A stretch of DNA of 64,000 nt from a virus: positions 1-64,000 of IMG/VR virus record IMGVR_UViG_3300019752_000005; one strand, 5' to 3'. Both the position numbers and the translations under genes were made by a program. Shown piece by piece: positions 6,444 through 64,000 of the stretch. The notes beneath the pieces are model-generated. The model had not been told where the DNA came from and made no database searches. It saw only the letters and a list, made by a program, of their open reading frames with translations. Position 1 is the first letter of the stretch. Each line of letters begins with the position of its first letter.

Positions 6444-7163
6444 ATGTTGAAGATTAAAATAACACCACCTGCAAAATCGGTGGAGTATAAATACTTGGAT
6501 GTTGTGCATGATGCAGTAGTCCAAGCGTTCTTGAAAACTGGTGTAGAGGAAAGTAAGATCATAGGTCATAAGTCAGAGCCTTGGAATTTTGCTGTTGAAT
6601 CTTATTCAAAAAAAGAAAACGGGGAGTTCATTAATGTAGTGAAGTCTCTATTTATCTCGACACCATCATCAGAATTATCAAAGTTTTTGAGTGGCATTAG
6701 TTTATCTAATCTGAATTATACACGTTCCCTAACTGGTGATACCGTGAATTTTATTAATTCAGGTATTGAGATTGTACAAGACCCCATCTTACCTAACCAG
6801 CATACATTATCCGTTAATTGTATATCTCCTTTGGCTATTCGCAAGCAGGATAAAAAGAATCGAAGTTGGTATTCTGAATTTGGAGATCTTGATATTATTG
6901 CGGCGATCAATAAGCGTTTATCGCGTTTAGCTGACAGAGATATTAGTTTATTGGTATCGGTAGACAGTTTGTTCTTACGTAGTAATGAAAAGTACAGTGT
7001 TTATATTCCAATTAAAAAGAATAGTAATGGTAATGTAACATTTGTAATTGGTATGAAAGCCCCTTTAGTGTTGCAAGGGAGTGAAGAAGATTTGCGATTT
7101 GCTTGGTATGCAGGGATTGGGGAAAAAACGCGCATGGGATTTGGAGGTTTAAGTGAGTACTAA
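6444..7163 (+). CDS. cas6: CRISPR pre-crRNA endoribonuclease Cas6
   Basis: A 239-residue Cas6 of the RAMP superfamily, which would cut CRISPR transcripts at the repeat stem-loop and often stays on the crRNA. The diagnostic C-terminal glycine-rich loop GIGEKTRMGFG is at residues 224-234. The central ISPLAIR stretch (about 128-133) matches the conserved start of the second ferredoxin-like domain. H22 and H42 are candidate catalytic histidines. First gene of a four-gene operon; its 3' end overlaps the next gene by 11 bases. No CRISPR array is in this window, so its substrate must be elsewhere. Confidence 0.85.
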   Translation: MLKIKITPPAKSVEYKYLDVVHDAVVQAFLKTGVEESKIIGHKSEPWNFAVESYSKKENGEFINVVKSLFISTPSSELSKFLSGISLSNLNYTRSLTGDTVNFINSGIEIVQDPILPNQHTLSVNCISPLAIRKQDKKNRSWYSEFGDLDIIAAINKRLSRLADRDISLLVSVDSLFLRSNEKYSVYIPIKKNSNGNVTFVIGMKAPLVLQGSEEDLRFAWYAGIGEKTRMGFGGLSEY

Positions 7164-9636
7164 GATGGAGCTGCAAGATATCGAACGGATATATTTCCAT
7201 ATACTAAATTATATTAAACAGAAGGAGAGTAAGAAGAGAATATCATTACTATCTGATAAGCAAGTTCAACAAGTTAACAAGGGTACGCACATTGACTGTA
7301 CCCCGTTAGCCGTGGGTTTTGGTTTAGATAAAAAGTTATCCTTACTTAGATTGGCTTTAATAAAGCAAGCTTACGTCACTTCTTGTGATGAAGATACACT
7401 GATTAATTATGGAATAGATGTCTATGATAATGGTTTACCAGTTAAAGATGAACTAAATCAGCTTAATGAACTTTTATTTATGGATAGTATTGATTTAGAT
7501 GCCATTAACGTATTAACCAAGCAATTATTTAATGAAACATATAAATTAGTTTCATTTCACACGCCGCACACACCATTCCTGACTGAAGAGTTTGTGTGTT
7601 CACTAACCACAGCTTGTGTTGACAATACATCAAAATATCCATTACTAAATCAATTTAGCGATGGATACTTAGAATGCCTATTACCAGAAAAACAAGCTGA
7701 TGATATCATTAGTAAAGCTAAAATCATTCTTTGTAAAGAAAGGCTACCATTTGATTTAGAATTAAATGTATCAGCAAAAGGATTCCCTAGCTTAAGTAAT
7801 GGGCAGCCTTGTGCAGAAGAAATTTATGACTTCTTGTCTGGGGATAAAGATGTTTCTGCAACAAGTAAGAATAAAGCTGATTTATTTCGTGTTAATGTTG
7901 ATGATTTATCAAACTTAAGAAGTGATATTGATAGTTTATTACAAAAAATAAACTTAACTGCTGATTATCCTAAGTCAGCAGGGGCAACACAACACCTTTT
8001 TTCAGTGAAAAGCATACCTAATTCAACAGTGTTTGCTGATATGTGTTTGATTTCATTAATGCTAAACCTCACTGTAGATAACAAGAAGTGCATCAACACA
8101 TCTGAGCGTGTGAATAAATTAATTGATATTGGTTTTGAATCTATGGGTTTAGAAGGTGAATTTAAAGAAGAAAGGACAGAACGTATTATTTATGCTATCC
8201 ACTTCACTGGATTAATTCAAGATAACCAACAGTTACGCGAAAAAATGCTTGTCGAGTTTAATAAATGGCTTGATGGTGATGATAATTACGCAGGATTAAA
8301 ACATAACTTCACTGGTATGGGTGCTCAAGTATCTATTGCGGTTGATAGTTATATAGATAATCTTGTTAATGGTAGGATGCAATCATTTGATAATGATGAA
8401 CTAGGTCGGTGCATATTTACAGGTGAACATGTTCCTATGTCGCAAAGTATTGACAGTAAAACAGGTATGCATGGTTTAAAAGTATCTGCTTTTTCAGGTA
8501 GAGAGAATAGACCAGAGGTGTTTAATTCAGCTAAAGCGTTAACAAATGTTGGATTTATATCTATAGCAGAACACAGATTGCGTACAATAGCCCATATGGA
8601 ACAAGGCGGGAAAAATGACGGCGTTCCAACCAATATATCAATACCAGTTGGTGTAGGCGGGTTTAGTGGTTTTAACCATAATAATGGTTTTAAACATTAT
8701 TCAGTATTTGACTTAGCAAGACAAGAAAAGAAAAAAGGTAAGGTATTTGATAGTTTCGATATTCATACTAATATGATTCGTGTGGCGCGTTTTGAATTAA
8801 TGCCACCTAAGTTAGCGGATCAGGTTGATAAGTTAAGGTTGATTATTAATGCTGCACTACGAACTGGCAGACCCACGCATATATTCCGTGGGTTACCATA
8901 TAAAAATAAAAATTTCTTTACATATGATGCTATGCCAGCTATAATTTCAAAACTTATTGGTGGGCAATCAATTAATTTTCAGCAATGTGTTGATGCCAGT
9001 AAGAAGTTAAAGTTTGCTAGTTCAGTACTTGAATATCATGATTTGGGTTATGATGCCTTAAGCAACTATCTATCCCCTGCCACTAAGTTTCAAGCCATAT
9101 GTAAAATGTGGTGCGTTATCAGAGGTAGTGGTGATTGCGGTTTATTTAATCAGCATGAATTAAGTGTTGAAATAGAGAATGAATACAGAAAGGAAATTCT
9201 ATCTATGGGAAGTAATGATATACATGAGCTTGGAAAGAAAGCGACTCGTATACAGAAATATTGTAGTTACACTGATAGTGTGATGTATCAGCAAATGTGC
9301 TTAATGTTATCTTTTGAAGCTGCTACCAGTTGCGTTAAGGTGGGGCAGAACGAAAAAGAAAGCATCGTTAGTGCGGTGTTAAGTAAGTTAATGGGAACAT
9401 TAAAGGATAAAAAACTATTAGCATCAAGTTTTAGTCGTGAAGGTGGTTCTTTAATCCAAGAGTGTGAAGAGTTTGCTAAATTATTCACGGAAAATATATG
9501 GTTTGGTATCTGTAATGGTGGATATCCAAGCCAGAGAAAGTTAAACGGCATCAAGAATATATTTAGAATGTCATTTATTATGGAACATAAAAGACTTTCA
9601 AACGAAAGAAGAAATGAACAAGAGAACAAGGTTTAA
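7153..9636 (+). CDS. cas10d: Cas10d/Csc3-like large subunit of a type I-D-like complex
   Basis: An 827-residue protein in the position of the type I-D large subunit, directly before csc2 and csc1. A conserved-looking middle part (about 418-480: GRCIFTGE, SAFSGRENRPE, AEHRLR) resembles the zinc-finger region of Cas10d, but only C420 remains of the usual cysteines. The N-terminal HD nuclease motif of typical Cas10d is not visible, and the length is shorter than common Cas10d. It would recognise target DNA, and possibly the PAM, without cutting it. GTG 7153 is favoured by GGAGG five bases upstream; ATG 7165 is an alternative. The family assignment is moderate and leans on the neighbours. Confidence 0.7.
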   Translation: MSTKMELQDIERIYFHILNYIKQKESKKRISLLSDKQVQQVNKGTHIDCTPLAVGFGLDKKLSLLRLALIKQAYVTSCDEDTLINYGIDVYDNGLPVKDELNQLNELLFMDSIDLDAINVLTKQLFNETYKLVSFHTPHTPFLTEEFVCSLTTACVDNTSKYPLLNQFSDGYLECLLPEKQADDIISKAKIILCKERLPFDLELNVSAKGFPSLSNGQPCAEEIYDFLSGDKDVSATSKNKADLFRVNVDDLSNLRSDIDSLLQKINLTADYPKSAGATQHLFSVKSIPNSTVFADMCLISLMLNLTVDNKKCINTSERVNKLIDIGFESMGLEGEFKEERTERIIYAIHFTGLIQDNQQLREKMLVEFNKWLDGDDNYAGLKHNFTGMGAQVSIAVDSYIDNLVNGRMQSFDNDELGRCIFTGEHVPMSQSIDSKTGMHGLKVSAFSGRENRPEVFNSAKALTNVGFISIAEHRLRTIAHMEQGGKNDGVPTNISIPVGVGGFSGFNHNNGFKHYSVFDLARQEKKKGKVFDSFDIHTNMIRVARFELMPPKLADQVDKLRLIINAALRTGRPTHIFRGLPYKNKNFFTYDAMPAIISKLIGGQSINFQQCVDASKKLKFASSVLEYHDLGYDALSNYLSPATKFQAICKMWCVIRGSGDCGLFNQHELSVEIENEYRKEILSMGSNDIHELGKKATRIQKYCSYTDSVMYQQMCLMLSFEAATSCVKVGQNEKESIVSAVLSKLMGTLKDKKLLASSFSREGGSLIQECEEFAKLFTENIWFGICNGGYPSQRKLNGIKNIFRMSFIMEHKRLSNERRNEQENKV

Positions 9637-9638
9637 TA

Positions 9639-10622
9639 ATGGAACAATTTAAAAAATATTTAGCTGATTTGGATGCTATAACCACAACCGTGCAAATGGA
9701 TGGTAAAAAGGAATATATACAGCCCTCACTAAAAAATGCAGCTAATTTATCTATTGTGCTGATTCGTGAAGCTATTGCACCTGTTATTTTCCGTAATGCA
9801 GAAGAAGAAATCACTGATATTGATATCAATGGTCAATCTCATGTTCGTGGTGTACCCAATAAATTTAAATATCCTGAAAAAGGTCGCGGATTGCAAGTGC
9901 TTCGTGCTTTAGGGGTTGGGGGTAAGCATTCACAAAATAAAACGGTTTTATTAAAAGGAGAAAAACCTTCTCAAGCTTATGATCTAAATACGTTGGTGTT
10001 TGGTGACTCAGTTGTACAGGATGGGCGTGTCTTATCTGTGAAGGCGGCGGTAAATTATTCTGATGCATTAAGTATTGAACGTAAAGAATTGTGTGTAGAT
10101 AGTAGTTTTCATAATGCAGCAGCAGAGGATGGTAGTCTGTTTGACTCTGAAGTAAAAAAGAATAGTAACAGCTTGTTCACACGACATTTTATCCGTCCTA
10201 ATACATTAATGGTTCAAGTGATATCAACCCGTGGTAAACTTTTACCTATGATTGGTTTGGATCACTTACTCCTTAGTATTGGTGTTGCTGGTGCTTATGG
10301 TGGGCAAACCTCTGTTACAGGAACTAATATTAAAACTCATGTTGTTGGTATTTATGGGGGTACTTATGAAAGCGCGTTATGCTCACCTTATGAGTTGGTT
10401 AAATTATTTGGTGGAGAGAATAGCTTAAGTGTTGAGCAAGTGAAGGATAAGATTCACACAGAATTAAGTGGTGTCTATCGTGACAACTTAAATAGTGATG
10501 CGGTTGAAAATCACATTACTCAATTATTACATGATTTTGATAATAACAATCTTGATAAATCTTACCAAGAAAGTAAACCTGTTATTGATAATTACTTTGA
10601 TAGTTGGTTTGGTTCTAAGTAA
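9639..10622 (+). CDS. csc2: Type I-D Cas7 family backbone protein Csc2
   Basis: A 327-residue Cas7-type RAMP protein that would form the crRNA-binding filament. Csc2-like features in order: an N-terminal helix with LIREAIAPVIF, a thumb-like region with LNTLVFGDSVV and LSIERKE, then FTRHFIRPNTLMVQVIS, and the closing part GVAGAYGGQTSVTGTNIKTH, which corresponds to the conserved RYGA...G segment. It lies 2 bases after the large subunit and its stop overlaps the csc1 start (TAATG). No nuclease motif is expected or seen. Confidence 0.8.
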   Translation: MEQFKKYLADLDAITTTVQMDGKKEYIQPSLKNAANLSIVLIREAIAPVIFRNAEEEITDIDINGQSHVRGVPNKFKYPEKGRGLQVLRALGVGGKHSQNKTVLLKGEKPSQAYDLNTLVFGDSVVQDGRVLSVKAAVNYSDALSIERKELCVDSSFHNAAAEDGSLFDSEVKKNSNSLFTRHFIRPNTLMVQVISTRGKLLPMIGLDHLLLSIGVAGAYGGQTSVTGTNIKTHVVGIYGGTYESALCSPYELVKLFGGENSLSVEQVKDKIHTELSGVYRDNLNSDAVENHITQLLHDFDNNNLDKSYQESKPVIDNYFDSWFGSK

Positions 10623-11248
10623 TGAATACTATAACACCTATTAAAGCTACAACTTTAACACCATTTAGCTATCATAGCTTGATGGTGCAGGGGGGTACAA
10701 CAACATTACAGGGTGTTATATCAGACACCGCCATAATGTATGGGTTGTGCTCCACACTTGGTTTTATGCGTAACACTGTTGTATTACCTAGTAAGGATTA
10801 TAAACGCGATCTACTTAACATGCCTTTAAGAGCATCGGTGTTTACTGATGATAACCCAAGTTTATTACCGCCACTATATAGACGCATAAACTTGGAAGAG
10901 GAAGGTGGATATAAAAAGCAAGTGCAGGATACTGTAAAAAAAGGTAACCTTGGTGCTTTTCATCAAATACAGGAAGTTAATATCGGTCAAATTTTCCGCG
11001 GTGCTTTGTTTGGATTTGATATATTCCAATACACTGGATTAGATGAAGTTGTTATACGCGTGGGTCTACATCGAAATGGCATGATTAAACTTGAACGCGG
11101 TAGTGTTGATAGTGTTCGTCTTAATGCGCATACAGCTAAGTTATTTGATTGTGATTTAGATGTGGATAGGTATATGCTGCATAATATTCAATTAACATCT
11201 TGCTTATCATTACCAGATGCTAGCAATATTGTTTCTGACTGGAGGTAG
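10622..11248 (+). CDS. csc1: Type I-D Cas5 family protein Csc1
   Basis: A 208-residue RAMP protein of the Cas5/Csc1 group, expected to hold the 5' handle of the crRNA at the base of the complex. Supporting features are the N-terminal TPFSYHSLMV, the early YGLCSTLGF (like YALCYALG of Csc1), a conserved proline and tyrosine region, and the C-terminal VVIRVGLHRNGMIKLERG strand resembling the IRLGK segment of Csc1. Last gene of the effector operon. No cas1, cas2, cas3 or cas4 follows; short membrane proteins do. Confidence 0.75.
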   Translation: MNTITPIKATTLTPFSYHSLMVQGGTTTLQGVISDTAIMYGLCSTLGFMRNTVVLPSKDYKRDLLNMPLRASVFTDDNPSLLPPLYRRINLEEEGGYKKQVQDTVKKGNLGAFHQIQEVNIGQIFRGALFGFDIFQYTGLDEVVIRVGLHRNGMIKLERGSVDSVRLNAHTAKLFDCDLDVDRYMLHNIQLTSCLSLPDASNIVSDWR

Positions 11249-19162: not shown

Positions 19163-19232
19163 ATCGGAATAAAAAGTTAGTATAACAGTACGTATCATTA
19201 GTAATTAAATTCATTCAATGGGGAATAAAATA

Positions 19233-19484
19233 ATGGATATTGAGAAAATTAAAAAAGAGAAAAGCGGGTTGGAATTATCTGTGTTGGGGGCATCAATTAT
19301 CCTCCCCACATCAGCTTGCTTTTGCATACACCACCTTATCACGGGGTCGCCTTGGTTTGCTAGCTTACTAGGGTTCACAGCGTTCATGGCACTTGGCTGG
19401 ATAAATTTGTCAACTGAGAAATTAGATGTTGTAAAAGGTGTTTTAGCTGAAACTGAAAGCAGTAAAAAAACACCGTTAGCTTAA
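19233..19484 (+). CDS. Small membrane protein, two TM segments
   Basis: 83 residues from ATG 19233, preceded by GGGG at 9 bases; an ATG at 19218 would place the SD inside the gene. Two hydrophobic segments separated by a short loop. The dispersed motif at 19313 falls in the first segment and is read as SACFC. Confidence 0.5.
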   Translation: MDIEKIKKEKSGLELSVLGASIILPTSACFCIHHLITGSPWFASLLGFTAFMALGWINLSTEKLDVVKGVLAETESSKKTPLA

Positions 19485-19494
19485 GAGGTATATA

Positions 19495-19797
19495 ATGTTA
19501 GGATTTAAAGATACAGACAAGTATAATGCACACATGAATCGTGCAAATACAGCAGCATCTCATTTGGAAGAGGTTTTTAGCAAGGTGAAGGTTGATTATA
19601 GTAATGGAGGATTATCTAGTGAATTGGTTTCTGTTGCTCATGATGATGGTAATCTAGTTATGGAACTAAATAAATCACAACAGCCTGAACTTGCTGCTCA
19701 CCTACTTAGTAAGAAGTTAATGAGTGAGTTTGGTTATCAATGCTACTGGGAAACAGATACAAGTGGAAAAGTAACAGGTTTTCTGATTAGGCATTGA
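19495..19797 (+). CDS. Unknown soluble protein
   Basis: 100 residues with GAGG upstream of ATG 19495. Helical N-terminus and a beta-rich C-terminal half. No family recognised. Confidence 0.5.
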   Translation: MLGFKDTDKYNAHMNRANTAASHLEEVFSKVKVDYSNGGLSSELVSVAHDDGNLVMELNKSQQPELAAHLLSKKLMSEFGYQCYWETDTSGKVTGFLIRH

Positions 19798-19799
19798 TA

Positions 19800-20177
19800 A
19801 TGGAGGAGCTTTATAAAAAGGTATCCAACTACTTACTACGAATACGTAATAAGGGTTTGGGTTTGGAGTTATGTCAGGTAAGCTTAATTAAAAACAAGAT
19901 ATATATAACCCATCCCGAACAAATGGTTTATTGTTGCCTTGATTTTAGAACGAACAGTAGTGATTATCAAGTGGTTGTAAACTGTAGTTTTGAAGGTCAG
20001 CACCTATATAGAAAAGTTATTGGTTTTAATTTAAATGAAATTGATAGATTACTTAATGATATTGATCTGTCTATATGTGGTTTTTTTGTGAAGATAGATA
20101 TGTATAGGGGGCTAGATGGTGCTAAATTCCAATGGGTAGGTGGTGCTAAGTTTAAAATGAATGGCTTCACCTATTAA
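19800..20177 (+). CDS. Unknown protein
   Basis: 126 residues from ATG 19800; TTG 19794 is an alternative. No motif recognised; general pattern like the other unknown proteins of this block. It ends one base before the structured RNA candidate. Confidence 0.45.
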   Translation: MEELYKKVSNYLLRIRNKGLGLELCQVSLIKNKIYITHPEQMVYCCLDFRTNSSDYQVVVNCSFEGQHLYRKVIGFNLNEIDRLLNDIDLSICGFFVKIDMYRGLDGAKFQWVGGAKFKMNGFTY

Positions 20178-20307
20178 TTGACACGTAGCAGAGGCATTAA
20201 ACGCTGTGTCACACCGCCTGCAAAGGTTAGTCCATGGCTTGGTAACGGTGATCTGTCCTACTTTACAGTAGCTGAGACCTCACACGTGATGCGGGGTCGT
20301 TTTTTTT
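20178..20307 (+). ncRNA. Candidate structured small RNA
   Basis: A gap of 150 bases without a gene contains four stems in a row. TGACAC 20179-20184 pairs with GTGTCA 20206-20211. CACCG 20212-20216 pairs with CGGTG 20246-20250, enclosing CCT-GCAA-AGG with a GNRA tetraloop and a CCA/TGG hairpin. CTAC 20258-20261 pairs with GTAG 20268-20271. A terminator stem follows at 20276-20298 with eight T. It is more GC-rich than its surroundings. It could be a regulatory or anti-defence sRNA, or the leader of the next gene. No known RNA family is recognised. Confidence 0.5.
20276..20307 (+). terminator. Rho-independent terminator of the candidate RNA
   Basis: GACCTC (20276-20281) pairs with GGGGTC (20293-20298), including one G-T pair, around a loop containing CACGTG, then eight T (20300-20307). 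Confidence 0.75.
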
Positions 20308-20327
20308 AATTTAAAGGGTGTTTATGT

Positions 20328-20570
20328 ATGTTAACGAAAGAAGAGATAAAAATAGTTAAAGAGCTGCGCTTAACAGCAAAAGTAGTTGGTTCTTTATTAA
20401 TGTTATTTGGTTATGGTGTTATAGTATTTCTTGTTGAAGGTGATCCTGTGGTTTATATTGCAATTATATTATTGCATTTTGTCATAGAAGGTGGGAGTAA
20501 CTTATTTGATAAGGGAATGGAGAGTGATAGAGAAATTATTGATAGCTGGTATAAGGTGAAAAATAAATAG
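20328..20570 (+). CDS. Small membrane protein, two TM segments
   Basis: 80 residues with AAAGGG upstream. Hydrophobic segments (VVGSLLMLFGYGVIVFLV and VVYIAIILLHFVI) flanked by charged ends. Last rightward gene of the accessory block, convergent with the next three genes. Confidence 0.5.
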   Translation: MLTKEEIKIVKELRLTAKVVGSLLMLFGYGVIVFLVEGDPVVYIAIILLHFVIEGGSNLFDKGMESDREIIDSWYKVKNK

Positions 20571-22566: not shown

Positions 22567-24591
22567 CTAACGTATTGGACATACACCAGTTTTACACTCG
22601 TCATCATCGAGAATATCACCACCGTAGTTATCAATATCAAAAGGCTTAAGCTTTGCCTTATATGATTCGTAACGCTCTTTGGTCACCACCTCTTGTGGTA
22701 AGTAGCTATAACCTAGGTCACGGGCTGTCTTTGTTGGATCATTTCGGAAAATAAAGCTAACACCAATATAGAAATCCCAATTATCTATAAACCAATCTAC
22801 AATATCCTGCACCTCACTAGCATCATAGGAAACAGTAACAGATACATTTTGCTGACACCAATACCGCATGTATTTCTTGTATCGTTCCAATTGAGTGATA
22901 GCACTTTCAATATTTATTTCCATTCCATCAACGTTGGTAAAGTTGATATTATCATATTCAATTGGTACAGCTACAATCACAGATTCAGGCTCATTTGGTA
23001 GAGAGCTAACCTCATAACCGCTTTCTTTCAACGCTACCAACATTTCATCATGAATACTGTATTTGATATTATTGATAATATAGCGTCCAAGTGGTAAATG
23101 AACCCCTTCTGTTGTGTCCATACACTTAGCCTGCGTCCCCGACGGCTTAACCGTAGTAACGTTTTTAGGGTACGGTGTTCCTAGTTCATCAGCCATTTTA
23201 TACGCATGGTATGTGGCATGGCGTTGCAGTGATTCCAATTCGTAACATGATAAGTCATCACGCATTGCAATTCCAGTTAATCCAACGCCACACAACCGTA
23301 AATGGTCATTATTTAAATTCCAAGCTTCCTGTAGGATTCCATCATCTAAATTAACACATGTTTGTCGGTAATTCGCGCGTGACATTATCTCAATTGCTCG
23401 TTTCAGCCCAGCAGAATCACCAATAAATCGACTTACATTAACATCAACTAAGTTACAGAAGCCTTTATTGGGAAGAATAACTTCACCGCATGGATTAAAG
23501 CCAGCAGCCCACTCAGCACGTTCTCTAGCATGTTTAGCATTTAAGAATGCAGGTTCAGAACCACCACTTCGAACCATTAGATTGAAAATATCTTCTAATG
23601 TATCGCGCGTCGGTTTATCATGAAATAATAAAGAGTTATTACTCTGCTCTCGATGTGAATTACCTTTTTCATACATACCTTCCTTAGCTGTTGCAAAAGA
23701 ATACCATTCCTCGTCACCAAAATCCATGATGGAAATTTCAGCACTACGTCGTGATGATAATGTTGTACCAAGCCAATTACATATATCTAAAATATCAATT
23801 TTTTTAAGCAATTCACCTGATCGCTTATTTAGAATTTGAGCAATATGTTCAAATGCTTTGGCAATTGATACATCACCACTACAAATCCAGCCATACCCTT
23901 TCAAACGTTCACCAGCAGGTCTGACTTCTGAAAAATCTAACACCAGTTTTTTAGCTGGGTATCTATGCACTAATAATTTACCAATAGACTTAGCCCATGC
24001 TTTAGCAGAGTCACCTACTTTAATAGTCCAAACACCTGTTTTCTTATTAAATGTTTCTACGTTATCTTCATAACCTTTATCCTTGCGCGTACTTCTAACC
24101 ACTTCAATTTCATTAATATGGCGTTTGAATCCTGTGAGTGTTCCAACTTCAGGTTTAAACCCTACACCACATCCTTGTAGTAATAACCAGAATAGATCAA
24201 CGGCATCATAAACAGTGTTAAGTTGGGTGAAGGCGCAATTGAATTGCGTTGCTTCAATCAACTTACTTAAATCAGTACCACCCAGCCAAAGCGTTCTACC
24301 ACTAACACCAGCTTTACCTTCCATGATTAACTTGCCCATCTCAACAAGTTCTATGATTTGCGAGTTATTCAACTCCTTACCTAATGCGCGTTCCCAAAGC
24401 CACTTTTGATGCCGCAGTACTCTTAAAACCACATCTTTCTTTTTCTCAAAATCATTGAGATATGGGCGACAATAAGAACGCTTAAAAACAAGCTGAGCGC
24501 GGAATGATGGTTTGTATTCTGGTGTGTAATTTAGAATGTCTTCTAATGCAGCTTTTACAGTGGTTGGTTTCAAATTTAATTCCTTTTTCAT
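22567..24591 (-). CDS. nrdJ: Adenosylcobalamin-dependent ribonucleoside-triphosphate reductase (class II, monomeric)
   Basis: A 674-residue class II RNR that makes dNTPs from NTPs using B12. C119 in FNCAFTQ sits at the position of the Lactobacillus leichmannii cysteine. The active-site loop NPCGEVILP and an LxGVGLTG segment are present, and the C-terminal pair CKTGVC would re-reduce the active site. The length fits the monomeric RTPR group. It ties phage dNTP supply to host or environmental cobalamin, and it does not depend on oxygen. Confidence 0.95.
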   Translation of the reverse strand: MKKELNLKPTTVKAALEDILNYTPEYKPSFRAQLVFKRSYCRPYLNDFEKKKDVVLRVLRHQKWLWERALGKELNNSQIIELVEMGKLIMEGKAGVSGRTLWLGGTDLSKLIEATQFNCAFTQLNTVYDAVDLFWLLLQGCGVGFKPEVGTLTGFKRHINEIEVVRSTRKDKGYEDNVETFNKKTGVWTIKVGDSAKAWAKSIGKLLVHRYPAKKLVLDFSEVRPAGERLKGYGWICSGDVSIAKAFEHIAQILNKRSGELLKKIDILDICNWLGTTLSSRRSAEISIMDFGDEEWYSFATAKEGMYEKGNSHREQSNNSLLFHDKPTRDTLEDIFNLMVRSGGSEPAFLNAKHARERAEWAAGFNPCGEVILPNKGFCNLVDVNVSRFIGDSAGLKRAIEIMSRANYRQTCVNLDDGILQEAWNLNNDHLRLCGVGLTGIAMRDDLSCYELESLQRHATYHAYKMADELGTPYPKNVTTVKPSGTQAKCMDTTEGVHLPLGRYIINNIKYSIHDEMLVALKESGYEVSSLPNEPESVIVAVPIEYDNINFTNVDGMEINIESAITQLERYKKYMRYWCQQNVSVTVSYDASEVQDIVDWFIDNWDFYIGVSFIFRNDPTKTARDLGYSYLPQEVVTKERYESYKAKLKPFDIDNYGGDILDDDECKTGVCPIR

Positions 24592-29700: not shown

Positions 29701-30083
29701 TTCACAGCCTTTATTTGTTCTGATAGTTTATTTAAGTACTTTACTGTAGCCCTCTCATCATTAGCACCTAAATCATTCTCCTTAACTCTATTAATATTAT
29801 CTTCAACACCCATATATAAACCAGTGAGAAATTCAGAAAAAAGAGTTTTAAAGTTTTTATTTCCACTTAAGGAACTATGATAACCAGCTAGCCCTTTTAC
29901 ATATTTTATTGGGTTACCATCATCACTATATCCGCTTTGTGTTATAGCACTTCTCCGTACATCAAAAGCTACAATAGAACCCCTTAGCATTGCTCCAATT
30001 TCATCATAACAATCGACATTATTATCAGCAGATAAATTTAATGGAGCTAAAAGTACCACCACAAATAAAACCATCTTATTCAC
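29691..30083 (-). CDS. Secreted or periplasmic protein
   Basis: 130 residues with a clear N-terminal signal sequence (MVLFVVVLLAPLNLSA). The mature part has two cysteines, one near each end (CYDEIG and KCG), which may pair. It overlaps both neighbours, so it belongs to the transglycosylase unit. No family recognised. Confidence 0.55.
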   Translation of the reverse strand: MNKMVLFVVVLLAPLNLSADNNVDCYDEIGAMLRGSIVAFDVRRSAITQSGYSDDGNPIKYVKGLAGYHSSLSGNKNFKTLFSEFLTGLYMGVEDNINRVKENDLGANDERATVKYLNKLSEQIKAVKCG

Positions 30084-30409
30084 ATTATCATCCTTCTAAC
30101 TAATTCCAAAATTCCAATATTTTCACCAGCAATTAACATCATAACTACCATCTTTAATATATCAGCCACAGTTGTCACGATTAGCATCAGTAGTATAACA
30201 TTTAGCCAATGTAGTACCACATCAACTATGGAAAGGAATTTTCCATATCTTGTGGAATTATTAAACCCGCTTTTAGCTTTGTTGGAATAATTCCTTATAT
30301 CATTTATAAATATTTTGGAATCACGTTTCCATCTATCATAAAACAACCTAAACCATGATCTATCTTTAACTGGTACCTGCTGGTTCTTATTTGTCTTTTT
30401 CTTTGACAT
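30080..30409 (-). CDS. Basic membrane protein
   Basis: 109 residues: a strongly basic N-terminal half, then two close hydrophobic segments (WLNVILLMLIVTTVADILKMVVMMLIA). No family recognised. First gene of the four-gene leftward unit. Its coding sequence carries many TGGAAT/ATTCCA elements. Confidence 0.5.
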   Translation of the reverse strand: MSKKKTNKNQQVPVKDRSWFRLFYDRWKRDSKIFINDIRNYSNKAKSGFNNSTRYGKFLSIVDVVLHWLNVILLMLIVTTVADILKMVVMMLIAGENIGILELVRRMIM

Positions 30410-30967
30410 TAAATAAACCTAAATGTTATATTGGAAGCAACCAACACTTGAAAGTTGATTCCAATATTGTTAACAGATCATTGCATGGAATTATACCAAC
30501 TTTTCAATTCCAAAGTCAATATTTTTATGGAATTAAATTCCATAACTTTTACTTATGGTTTTGTAGCGGAATCGTTATACATGGAATCGCTTATATAACA
30601 ATGAGTTGTATTATAGAATTCCATTTAATATGGAATATTCCACTATATTTTATATTTTAGAAGGAATTCCATAATGCCGATTCCATTGGAAGTATTCAAT
30701 AATGCGCGTGATATAGTGCATGAACAGTTTAGTAACTTTGATCATAGTTGCGTTTTAAAATTCCATCAAGATAGCACATTTAATATCGAAACAGGAAAGG
30801 AGGAAGCGATAGGTGTGCAGTCTTATGAATTTAAAGCTAAGAGGTTTAACTACACCAAGAAGGAGATGAATGACTTTAATTTTTCTGTATCAGATTTTAA
30901 GTTAAATGTTAATTTTGATTCCATTCCACTGGAACTACAGAACGTAATCAAAGATAAGAATGATTCC
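30103..30967. repeat. Dense cluster of TGGAAT/ATTCCA elements
   Basis: I count 24 copies of GGAAT or ATTCC in about 865 bases, 20 of them as TGGAAT or ATTCCA; fewer than one of the 6-mers would be expected. Some form palindromes such as GGAATTCC and TGGAATATTCCA. The cluster covers the start of the leftward membrane gene, the 264-base gap 30410-30673 and most of the rightward gene. The gap itself holds no other clear feature. It may be a multi-site binding region such as a regulatory, partition or packaging site. Confidence 0.75.
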
Positions 30968-63107: not shown

Positions 63108-63128
63108 TTTATCTCTTTTTAACTTGTG

Positions 63129-63162
63129 AAACGGCACTTAGTGTGTGCCGTTTTAGTTTTTT
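63129..63162 (+). terminator. Strong hairpin with T run on the plus strand
   Basis: AAACGGCAC (63129-63137) pairs perfectly with GTGCCGTTT (63145-63153), followed by a T-rich stretch on the plus strand. The surrounding genes run leftward, so it has the orientation of a terminator for antisense transcription; on the minus strand it lacks a T run. Confidence 0.6.
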
Positions 63163-63164
63163 GA

Positions 63165-64000
63165 TTACACCCTAACTAAGAATAAAGTAGCGAATCCGCT
63201 ACACTTAAAAACCCCAAATTCGCCAATTTTACCAATATAATCACCTTGCACACCACCATAATTAAAAGTGATGGTGGTTACATCGCATTTATCCCCAATA
63301 ACTATTTTATCTAAAGGAAACCATTTTAACATTTTACGATAAACGCTAAATACCATTGTGCGGTATTTCTTAAGTAATTCATCACGCTTAATGCGAACAG
63401 ATAAGTGATAATCAATTTCCCAGTCATATTCAAATTTAGGCGGGTTTTGCAATGATTTATTGGAATATTCCAACTCTTTATATAGCTTCTCACACCCTTT
63501 GATATCTTGCTGTAAATCTTGGATGGTATACTTAAGGTGATATTTATTGCTGTCCTTATTTAGTACATTAAGAACAGCGTTATCTATGCCCCCTTTGATA
63601 TCTACATCCACACCCCATTTAGCAGCTTTTCTAGGAAAACTATGTGGTGCTAAATCATCTGTCTCAGGAACTTTTAACATCAGTTTTTCTTTGCGAGATT
63701 TAAAATAATCTATAATAGATTTAATCTCTTTCAATAACCCTTCCATCTCACGCTGTCTAACAATATTGGTATCACATCGATCTTCAACAGATGTTTTTAA
63801 CAAACTATCTCTCCAATCATCAGCCATTTTAACCTCTAAACGAATACTTTTACCACTATTTAGCTCATGATTAACCCACTTCTTTCTATCCTCTTCCACA
63901 TCCTTCATGGCTTGACGTGCAGCTTTTGAAACACCATTTTCTTTACCAGCTACAGGCACCTTAATACAACATTGATAGCACCAACTGTGCGGATTAGGAA
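63165..64000 (-). CDS. Unknown phage protein, 5' end beyond the window
   Basis: The frame is open without a stop to the window edge, so the GTG at 63959 need not be the start. The visible part (at least 278 residues) begins with SWCYQCCIKVPVAGKENGVSKAARQ, then a charged helical region and a C-terminal beta-rich part. The cysteines near the edge suggest a metal or disulfide site. It may be a structural or morphogenesis protein, but no family is recognised. Confidence 0.5.
   Translation of the reverse strand, partial: PNPHSWCYQCCIKVPVAGKENGVSKAARQAMKDVEEDRKKWVNHELNSGKSIRLEVKMADDWRDSLLKTSVEDRCDTNIVRQREMEGLLKEIKSIIDYFKSRKEKLMLKVPETDDLAPHSFPRKAAKWGVDVDIKGGIDNAVLNVLNKDSNKYHLKYTIQDLQQDIKGCEKLYKELEYSNKSLQNPPKFEYDWEIDYHLSVRIKRDELLKKYRTMVFSVYRKMLKWFPLDKIVIGDKCDVTTITFNYGGVQGDYIGKIGEFGVFKCSGFATLFLVRV

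Follow-up and report, generated by a model that had tools for sequence, protein, structure and literature searches.

A GC-rich intergenic stretch that ends in a likely intrinsic terminator, and may act as a regulatory leader, in a phage carrying type I-D Cas genes

Transcription attenuators are terminator/antiterminator leaders of bacterial genes. The element described here (positions 20178-20307 of a viral sequence) resembles them in that a terminator stands before a gene and an alternative upstream fold is predicted to take up the 5' arm of that terminator, and it differs from them in carrying no demonstrated sensing element, leader peptide or covariation and in that the mutual exclusivity of its predicted folds is within chance expectation (16.4% of 500 shuffles). 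The putRNA of HK022 is described in PMC9378689 as a cis-acting antitermination RNA of ~70 bases with two neighbouring stem-loops in the early phage transcript, and the same source places putRNAs downstream of early promoters, where they act on distant terminators. Two adjacent stem-loops predicted at 20179-20250 recall this arrangement, but the likeness of the element, which lies between two genes (A and B), is one of layout only. The phage-encoded small RNAs IsrK, AgvB, AsxR, and c4 each have a demonstrated transcript and target (PMC12197685), and the element shares with them that it is a short, intergenic phage RNA candidate. Racr are single CRISPR repeat units in viruses that mimic the CRISPR repeat (PMC11656645). 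The element is likewise a small RNA candidate of a phage that carries Cas genes, but neither the sequence nor the hairpin of a CRISPR repeat was found in it when three type I-D repeats were compared. Finally, long GC-enriched gaps in the AT-rich genome of Pelagibacter are reported to be enriched for structured RNAs (PMC2704228).

The window, that is the whole stretch of DNA analysed, comprises bases 1-64,000 of a 76,625-base IMG/VR virus record. The element begins directly after the stop codon of gene A, and genes A and B are both encoded on the + strand. Searches of Pfam and PHROGs returned no match for gene A and no significant family for gene B, and a second copy of the element was looked for in the record and not found. 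The features of the locus are as follows.

19794-20177, + strand: upstream gene A, an open reading frame of 127 residues without known family
20178-20327, + strand: GC-rich gap between genes A and B, 150 bases, 46% GC
20179-20211, + strand: stem I, a predicted hairpin (GACAC/GTGTC with inner AGC/GCT) of the MFE fold, not above shuffles
20212-20250, + strand: stem II, in which CACCG pairs with CGGTG; seen in folds of growing prefixes, prediction only
20216-20227, + strand: GCCT-GCAA-AGGT hairpin with a GNRA tetraloop, predicted in the MFE fold and mutually exclusive with stem II
20234-20300, + strand: long antiterminator-like rod of the MFE fold, predicted to capture the 5' arm of the terminator
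20276-20307, + strand: intrinsic terminator, GACCTC-11 bases-GGGGTC-G-T8, -10.1 kcal/mol
20313-20318, + strand: Shine-Dalgarno-like AAAGGG of gene B, from the sequence
20328-20570, + strand: downstream gene B, an open reading frame of 80 residues with a hydrophobic middle, a putative membrane protein

The original prediction described the element as more GC-rich than its surroundings, and this was confirmed. The GC content is 49.2% in the element vs 34.3% in the window, and 130-base stretches as GC-rich as the element occur at three places in the window, the element included, the other two being located inside the open reading frames 19218-19484 and 22567-24591. In the rest of the record beyond the window the maximum for 130 bases is 47.7% and none reaches 49%. 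Among gaps, the GC content of 20178-20327 (0.46) lies 5.4 sd above that of 19 other gaps (mean 0.303, sd 0.029, maximum 0.352), where the comparison gaps are the longest 19, each of at least 78 bases, that were left by a greedy picker of open reading frames. This picker took a 43-codon TTG frame within the gap as a gene; the gap was added by hand, and gaps filled in the same way elsewhere are missing from the control. A GC-rich gap in an AT-rich genome belongs to a class that is enriched for structured RNAs, which indicates that the stretch was picked out for a real property; it is real but overstated.

The TTG frame bears on the claim that the stretch is free of genes, which holds in so far as the stretch lies between two open reading frames, but the frame (20178-20309) spans it and is open. 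Its GC content by codon position (0.52/0.57/0.43) is unlike that of five phage genes (0.43-0.54/0.33-0.38/0.26-0.32), it has no match in Pfam at E 10, and tblastn in phages gave no significant match (10 records at E 5-10, under unrelated genes). On these three grounds the frame was judged to be non-coding and a coding gene at 20178-20309 was rejected. In addition, the last codons of the frame are the T run of the terminator and no Shine-Dalgarno-like sequence was seen before the TTG, and translation of a 43-residue protein from the TTG at 20178 is extremely improbable even though the frame is open.

The arms of the terminator, GACCTC (20276-20281) and GGGGTC (20293-20298), are followed by a single G and by eight T residues at 20300-20307, and a hairpin with a directly adjoining T run of this kind is an intrinsic (Rho-independent) terminator by the usual definition. 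A standard pattern scan omits it, presumably due to the 11-base spacing of the arms, as the scan allows loops of up to 8 bases. A terminator at the end of the stretch, as originally described, is borne out by the sequence, the energy, and the T8 run, but when the element is folded on its own its MFE structure lacks this hairpin.

The MFE fold of the element consists of stem I, the GCAA-tetraloop hairpin, and the long rod, and its predicted energy (-34.6 kcal/mol) is at the level of shuffled sequences (mean -34.9 kcal/mol; 101 of 200 dinucleotide shuffles match or exceed its stability, z = +0.07). When the upstream 98 bases were shuffled and the terminator was kept, 64.8% of 500 sequences were at least as stable. 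Equally stable folds were obtained for 127 out of 12,774 overlapping 130-base windows on both strands, and for its GC content the stability of the element exceeds the expected value by 1.1 sd (regression on + strand windows). A fold more stable than shuffled sequence, the general criterion for a structured RNA, was therefore not found for the element. Many real RNAs are not outliers in fold energy relative to shuffles. An energy at shuffle level gives the structure no real support and does not refute it either. Of the consecutive stems with a GNRA tetraloop that had been proposed, the GCAA hairpin at 20216-20227 is present in the MFE fold, but the fold is no better than chance, and since the terminator hairpin is unformed in it (probability 0.08) a series of stems ending in the terminator is not the preferred fold.

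The rod and the terminator are predicted to be mutually exclusive, and the predicted probability of the terminator varies with the start of the transcript: from 0.83 for a start at 20100 and 0.05 for a start at 20140 to 0.98-0.99 for starts at 20250-20270. The formation of the terminator with a start at 20100 indicates that a switch of this kind would depend on its context. When the chain is folded as it grows, stem II is predicted ahead of the rod, and the terminator would stay free in its presence. The terminator is hidden equally well in the above 16.4% of upstream shuffles, which leaves the attenuator-like layout a hypothesis.

As the predicted fold is no better than chance, the most likely reading of the element is an ordinary terminator, possibly preceded by a regulatory leader, and it is ordinary on present evidence. 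The reading tentatively preferred, with a confidence that stays somewhat short of probable, is that 20178-20327 holds a terminator between two cistrons and, before it, a GC-rich leader, and that it restricts read-through into gene B, perhaps by attenuation. Transcripts through gene A would end at 20300-20307 and gene B would be expressed only via read-through; within the bases that precede the terminator, either stem II would free the terminator or the rod would take its 5' arm, and read-through into gene B could be tunable in attenuator fashion. The position, the GC excess, the terminator sequence and the lack of a strong sigma-70 promoter match are observed, whereas the alternative folds of the leader are predictions only; that transcripts do terminate and read through here, with consequences for gene B, is what we infer. 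A terminator between genes of the same strand and a Shine-Dalgarno-like site before gene B speak for this reading, as do, on the models used, the lack of an outstanding sigma-70 site, the GC excess, and the exclusive folds of rod and terminator. Against it stand the fractions of shuffles that hide the terminator or are as stable, the context dependence of the switch, and the lack of a homologue in the searches described below. A leader that controls the next small membrane protein, one of three functions originally suggested, fits the layout best (genes on the same strand, AAAGGG, no convincing promoter), but the exclusivity of its folds is within chance. If a regulated terminator is indeed present, it would add another attenuator, from a phage lineage that has been sampled little, which is useful and not surprising.

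Searches for RNA families and homologues were negative throughout. No match was obtained in the whole window with Rfam 15 at the gathering score, and at E values up to 10 the element gave only a chance-level match to SNORD21 (17 bits vs 63), so that the Rfam scan that had been recommended for the candidate RNA yielded no credible family. ARAGORN identified no tRNA or tmRNA in the window. In homologue searches, whose databases may omit records that closely resemble that of the window, DNA similarity to phages and plasmids gave nothing useful (one 27-base plasmid match, E 0.9) and exact 19-21-mers of the element were absent from viral and genome contigs. No relatives were found in viral contigs via gene A, gene B, a 169-residue gene, Cas10d, or the terminase, and searches with Cas10d in genome contigs and in phages yielded none either. 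The RNR shows 59% identity to its best phage match and 58% to two 156-kb viral contigs. When the element was compared with seven records, these two viral contigs gave no match and the other five gave short ones only (best E 0.06 over 17 bases).

The lack of an Rfam match and of any homologue, together with a fold energy at shuffle level, is what a plain terminator with a spacer, an outcome that the original prediction named as refuting it, would lead one to expect; in this reading the 98 upstream bases have no function and are GC-rich as recently acquired DNA or as a decayed gene. However, the GC excess is the largest among the compared gaps, needs a cause and speaks against a random spacer, and donor DNA was found neither in phages or plasmids nor as an exact 21-mer in genome contigs; this explanation is considered rather unlikely.

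Promoters were scored with sigma-70 weights, and the scoring covers the sigma-70 type only. On the + strand between 20060 and 20300 nothing sigma-70-like scored higher than a TTGACA whose second hexamer is poor, and that score recurs ~15 times per kb over both strands; a separate promoter scan listed no + strand promoter. The best pairing of the element with any of 130 phage start regions is no better than chance (21 of 40 shuffles do as well or better), and pairing with the start of gene B is also within shuffles. These results weigh against a small RNA with a stable 3' end, ~100-130 bases long, that would be cut from the gene A transcript or start at an unrecognised promoter and act in trans. 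A terminator with T8 at its end would suit such an RNA, as would a GC-rich gap of >100 bases in an AT-rich genome, the class described for Pelagibacter (PMC2704228), but no promoter match stands out, the pairing is that of shuffled sequences, and no homologue was found. A small RNA of this type is improbable, as is the trans-acting RNA of the original prediction.

The phage encodes a type I-D Cas operon (6444-11248, + strand) with Cas6d, Cas10d, Cas7d/Csc2, and Cas5d, and the element was for this reason examined as a guide or a decoy. The phage Cas10d has 827 residues vs ~970 in three plasmid relatives (24-30% identity), and the N-terminal region that carries LDH and HD(x)DK motifs in these relatives is missing or not conserved. 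Beside the operon no cas3', cas1, or cas2 was recognised among open reading frames judged by eye, and a search of the record for a CRISPR array (repeated 16-mers 45-90 bases apart) gave none apart from a pair of 24-base units near the right end. These are identical direct repeats, 64 bases apart (L002 13359-13382 and 13423-13446; record 76359-76446), and their sequence is absent from the window even when 3 mismatches are allowed. Judged by its sequence, the type I-D complex of the phage thus appears to be without nuclease and array, and a limited literature search that included PMC11656645 and PMC12669027 showed no phage system of nuclease-less, array-less type I-D.

The three plasmids with a related Cas10d carry type I-D loci and arrays, with cas1/cas2 annotated in two of them and not in the third. 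The best match of the record to the three type I-D repeats covers at most 18 of 28 bases, for none of these repeats does the element figure among the 8 top-ranking sites, and it lacks the CCCC/GGGG hairpin that the repeats possess. A 9-base word, ATGCGGGGT, is common to the element and the Thiothrix plasmid repeat; a shared word of this length occurs in 1.8% of 1000 shuffled versions of the element and in ~3.1% of the 491 phage windows compared. A role as guide RNA or anti-defence decoy tied to type I-D CRISPR-Cas would account for the shared word and for Cas genes without an array in the record, but an equally long word is shared by the stated fraction of phage windows and the element has neither a repeat-like site nor the hairpin, and this explanation is hardly credible. 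A CRISPR repeat mimic or decoy was rejected as it stands on a comparison with three repeats from distant systems, and with it the anti-defence RNA decoy of the original prediction. A new phage RNA that is GC-rich for the sake of its structure, either a signal-responsive terminator switch before a small membrane protein or an unconventional guide or scaffold for the type I-D Cas complex of the phage itself, which has no array and apparently no nuclease, is very improbable. The value of the element would rise sharply if its RNA were bound by the phage's own Cas proteins, which are apparently without array and HD nuclease region.

The type I-D Cas operon and the inverted terminal repeats of the record are more unusual than the element itself. 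The terminal repeats are exact over 123 bases (1-123 and record 76503-76625, L002 13503-13625), the right end being the reverse complement of the left, and indicate that the linear genome may be complete, though the record is classed as without end repeats. A perfect 18-base inverted repeat (175-192 / 228-245) adjoins the left terminal repeat, and the + strand of 138-267 has a fold z of -5.1 with 0 of 200 shuffles as stable and only sub-threshold miRNA matches in Rfam. The direction of the genes changes at 30410-30673 (+ strand), a region with many inverted repeats that is rich in TGGAAT/ATTCCA; 15 of the 99 occurrences of these words in the window fall within 30084-30673, which includes a 109-codon frame (30080-30409). 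The strongest fold lies at 30558-30687 (+ strand), with a z of -5.9 at 28% GC and sub-threshold matches only in Rfam. Going by these predictions, 30410-30673 outranks 20178-20307 as a candidate for a structured RNA or an origin-like element. A further hairpin (63127-63156, + strand, -16.1 kcal/mol) with a T-rich tail is located in a segment (63110-63170) with a fold z of -3.7 and 1 of 200 shuffles as stable, and is probably a terminator.
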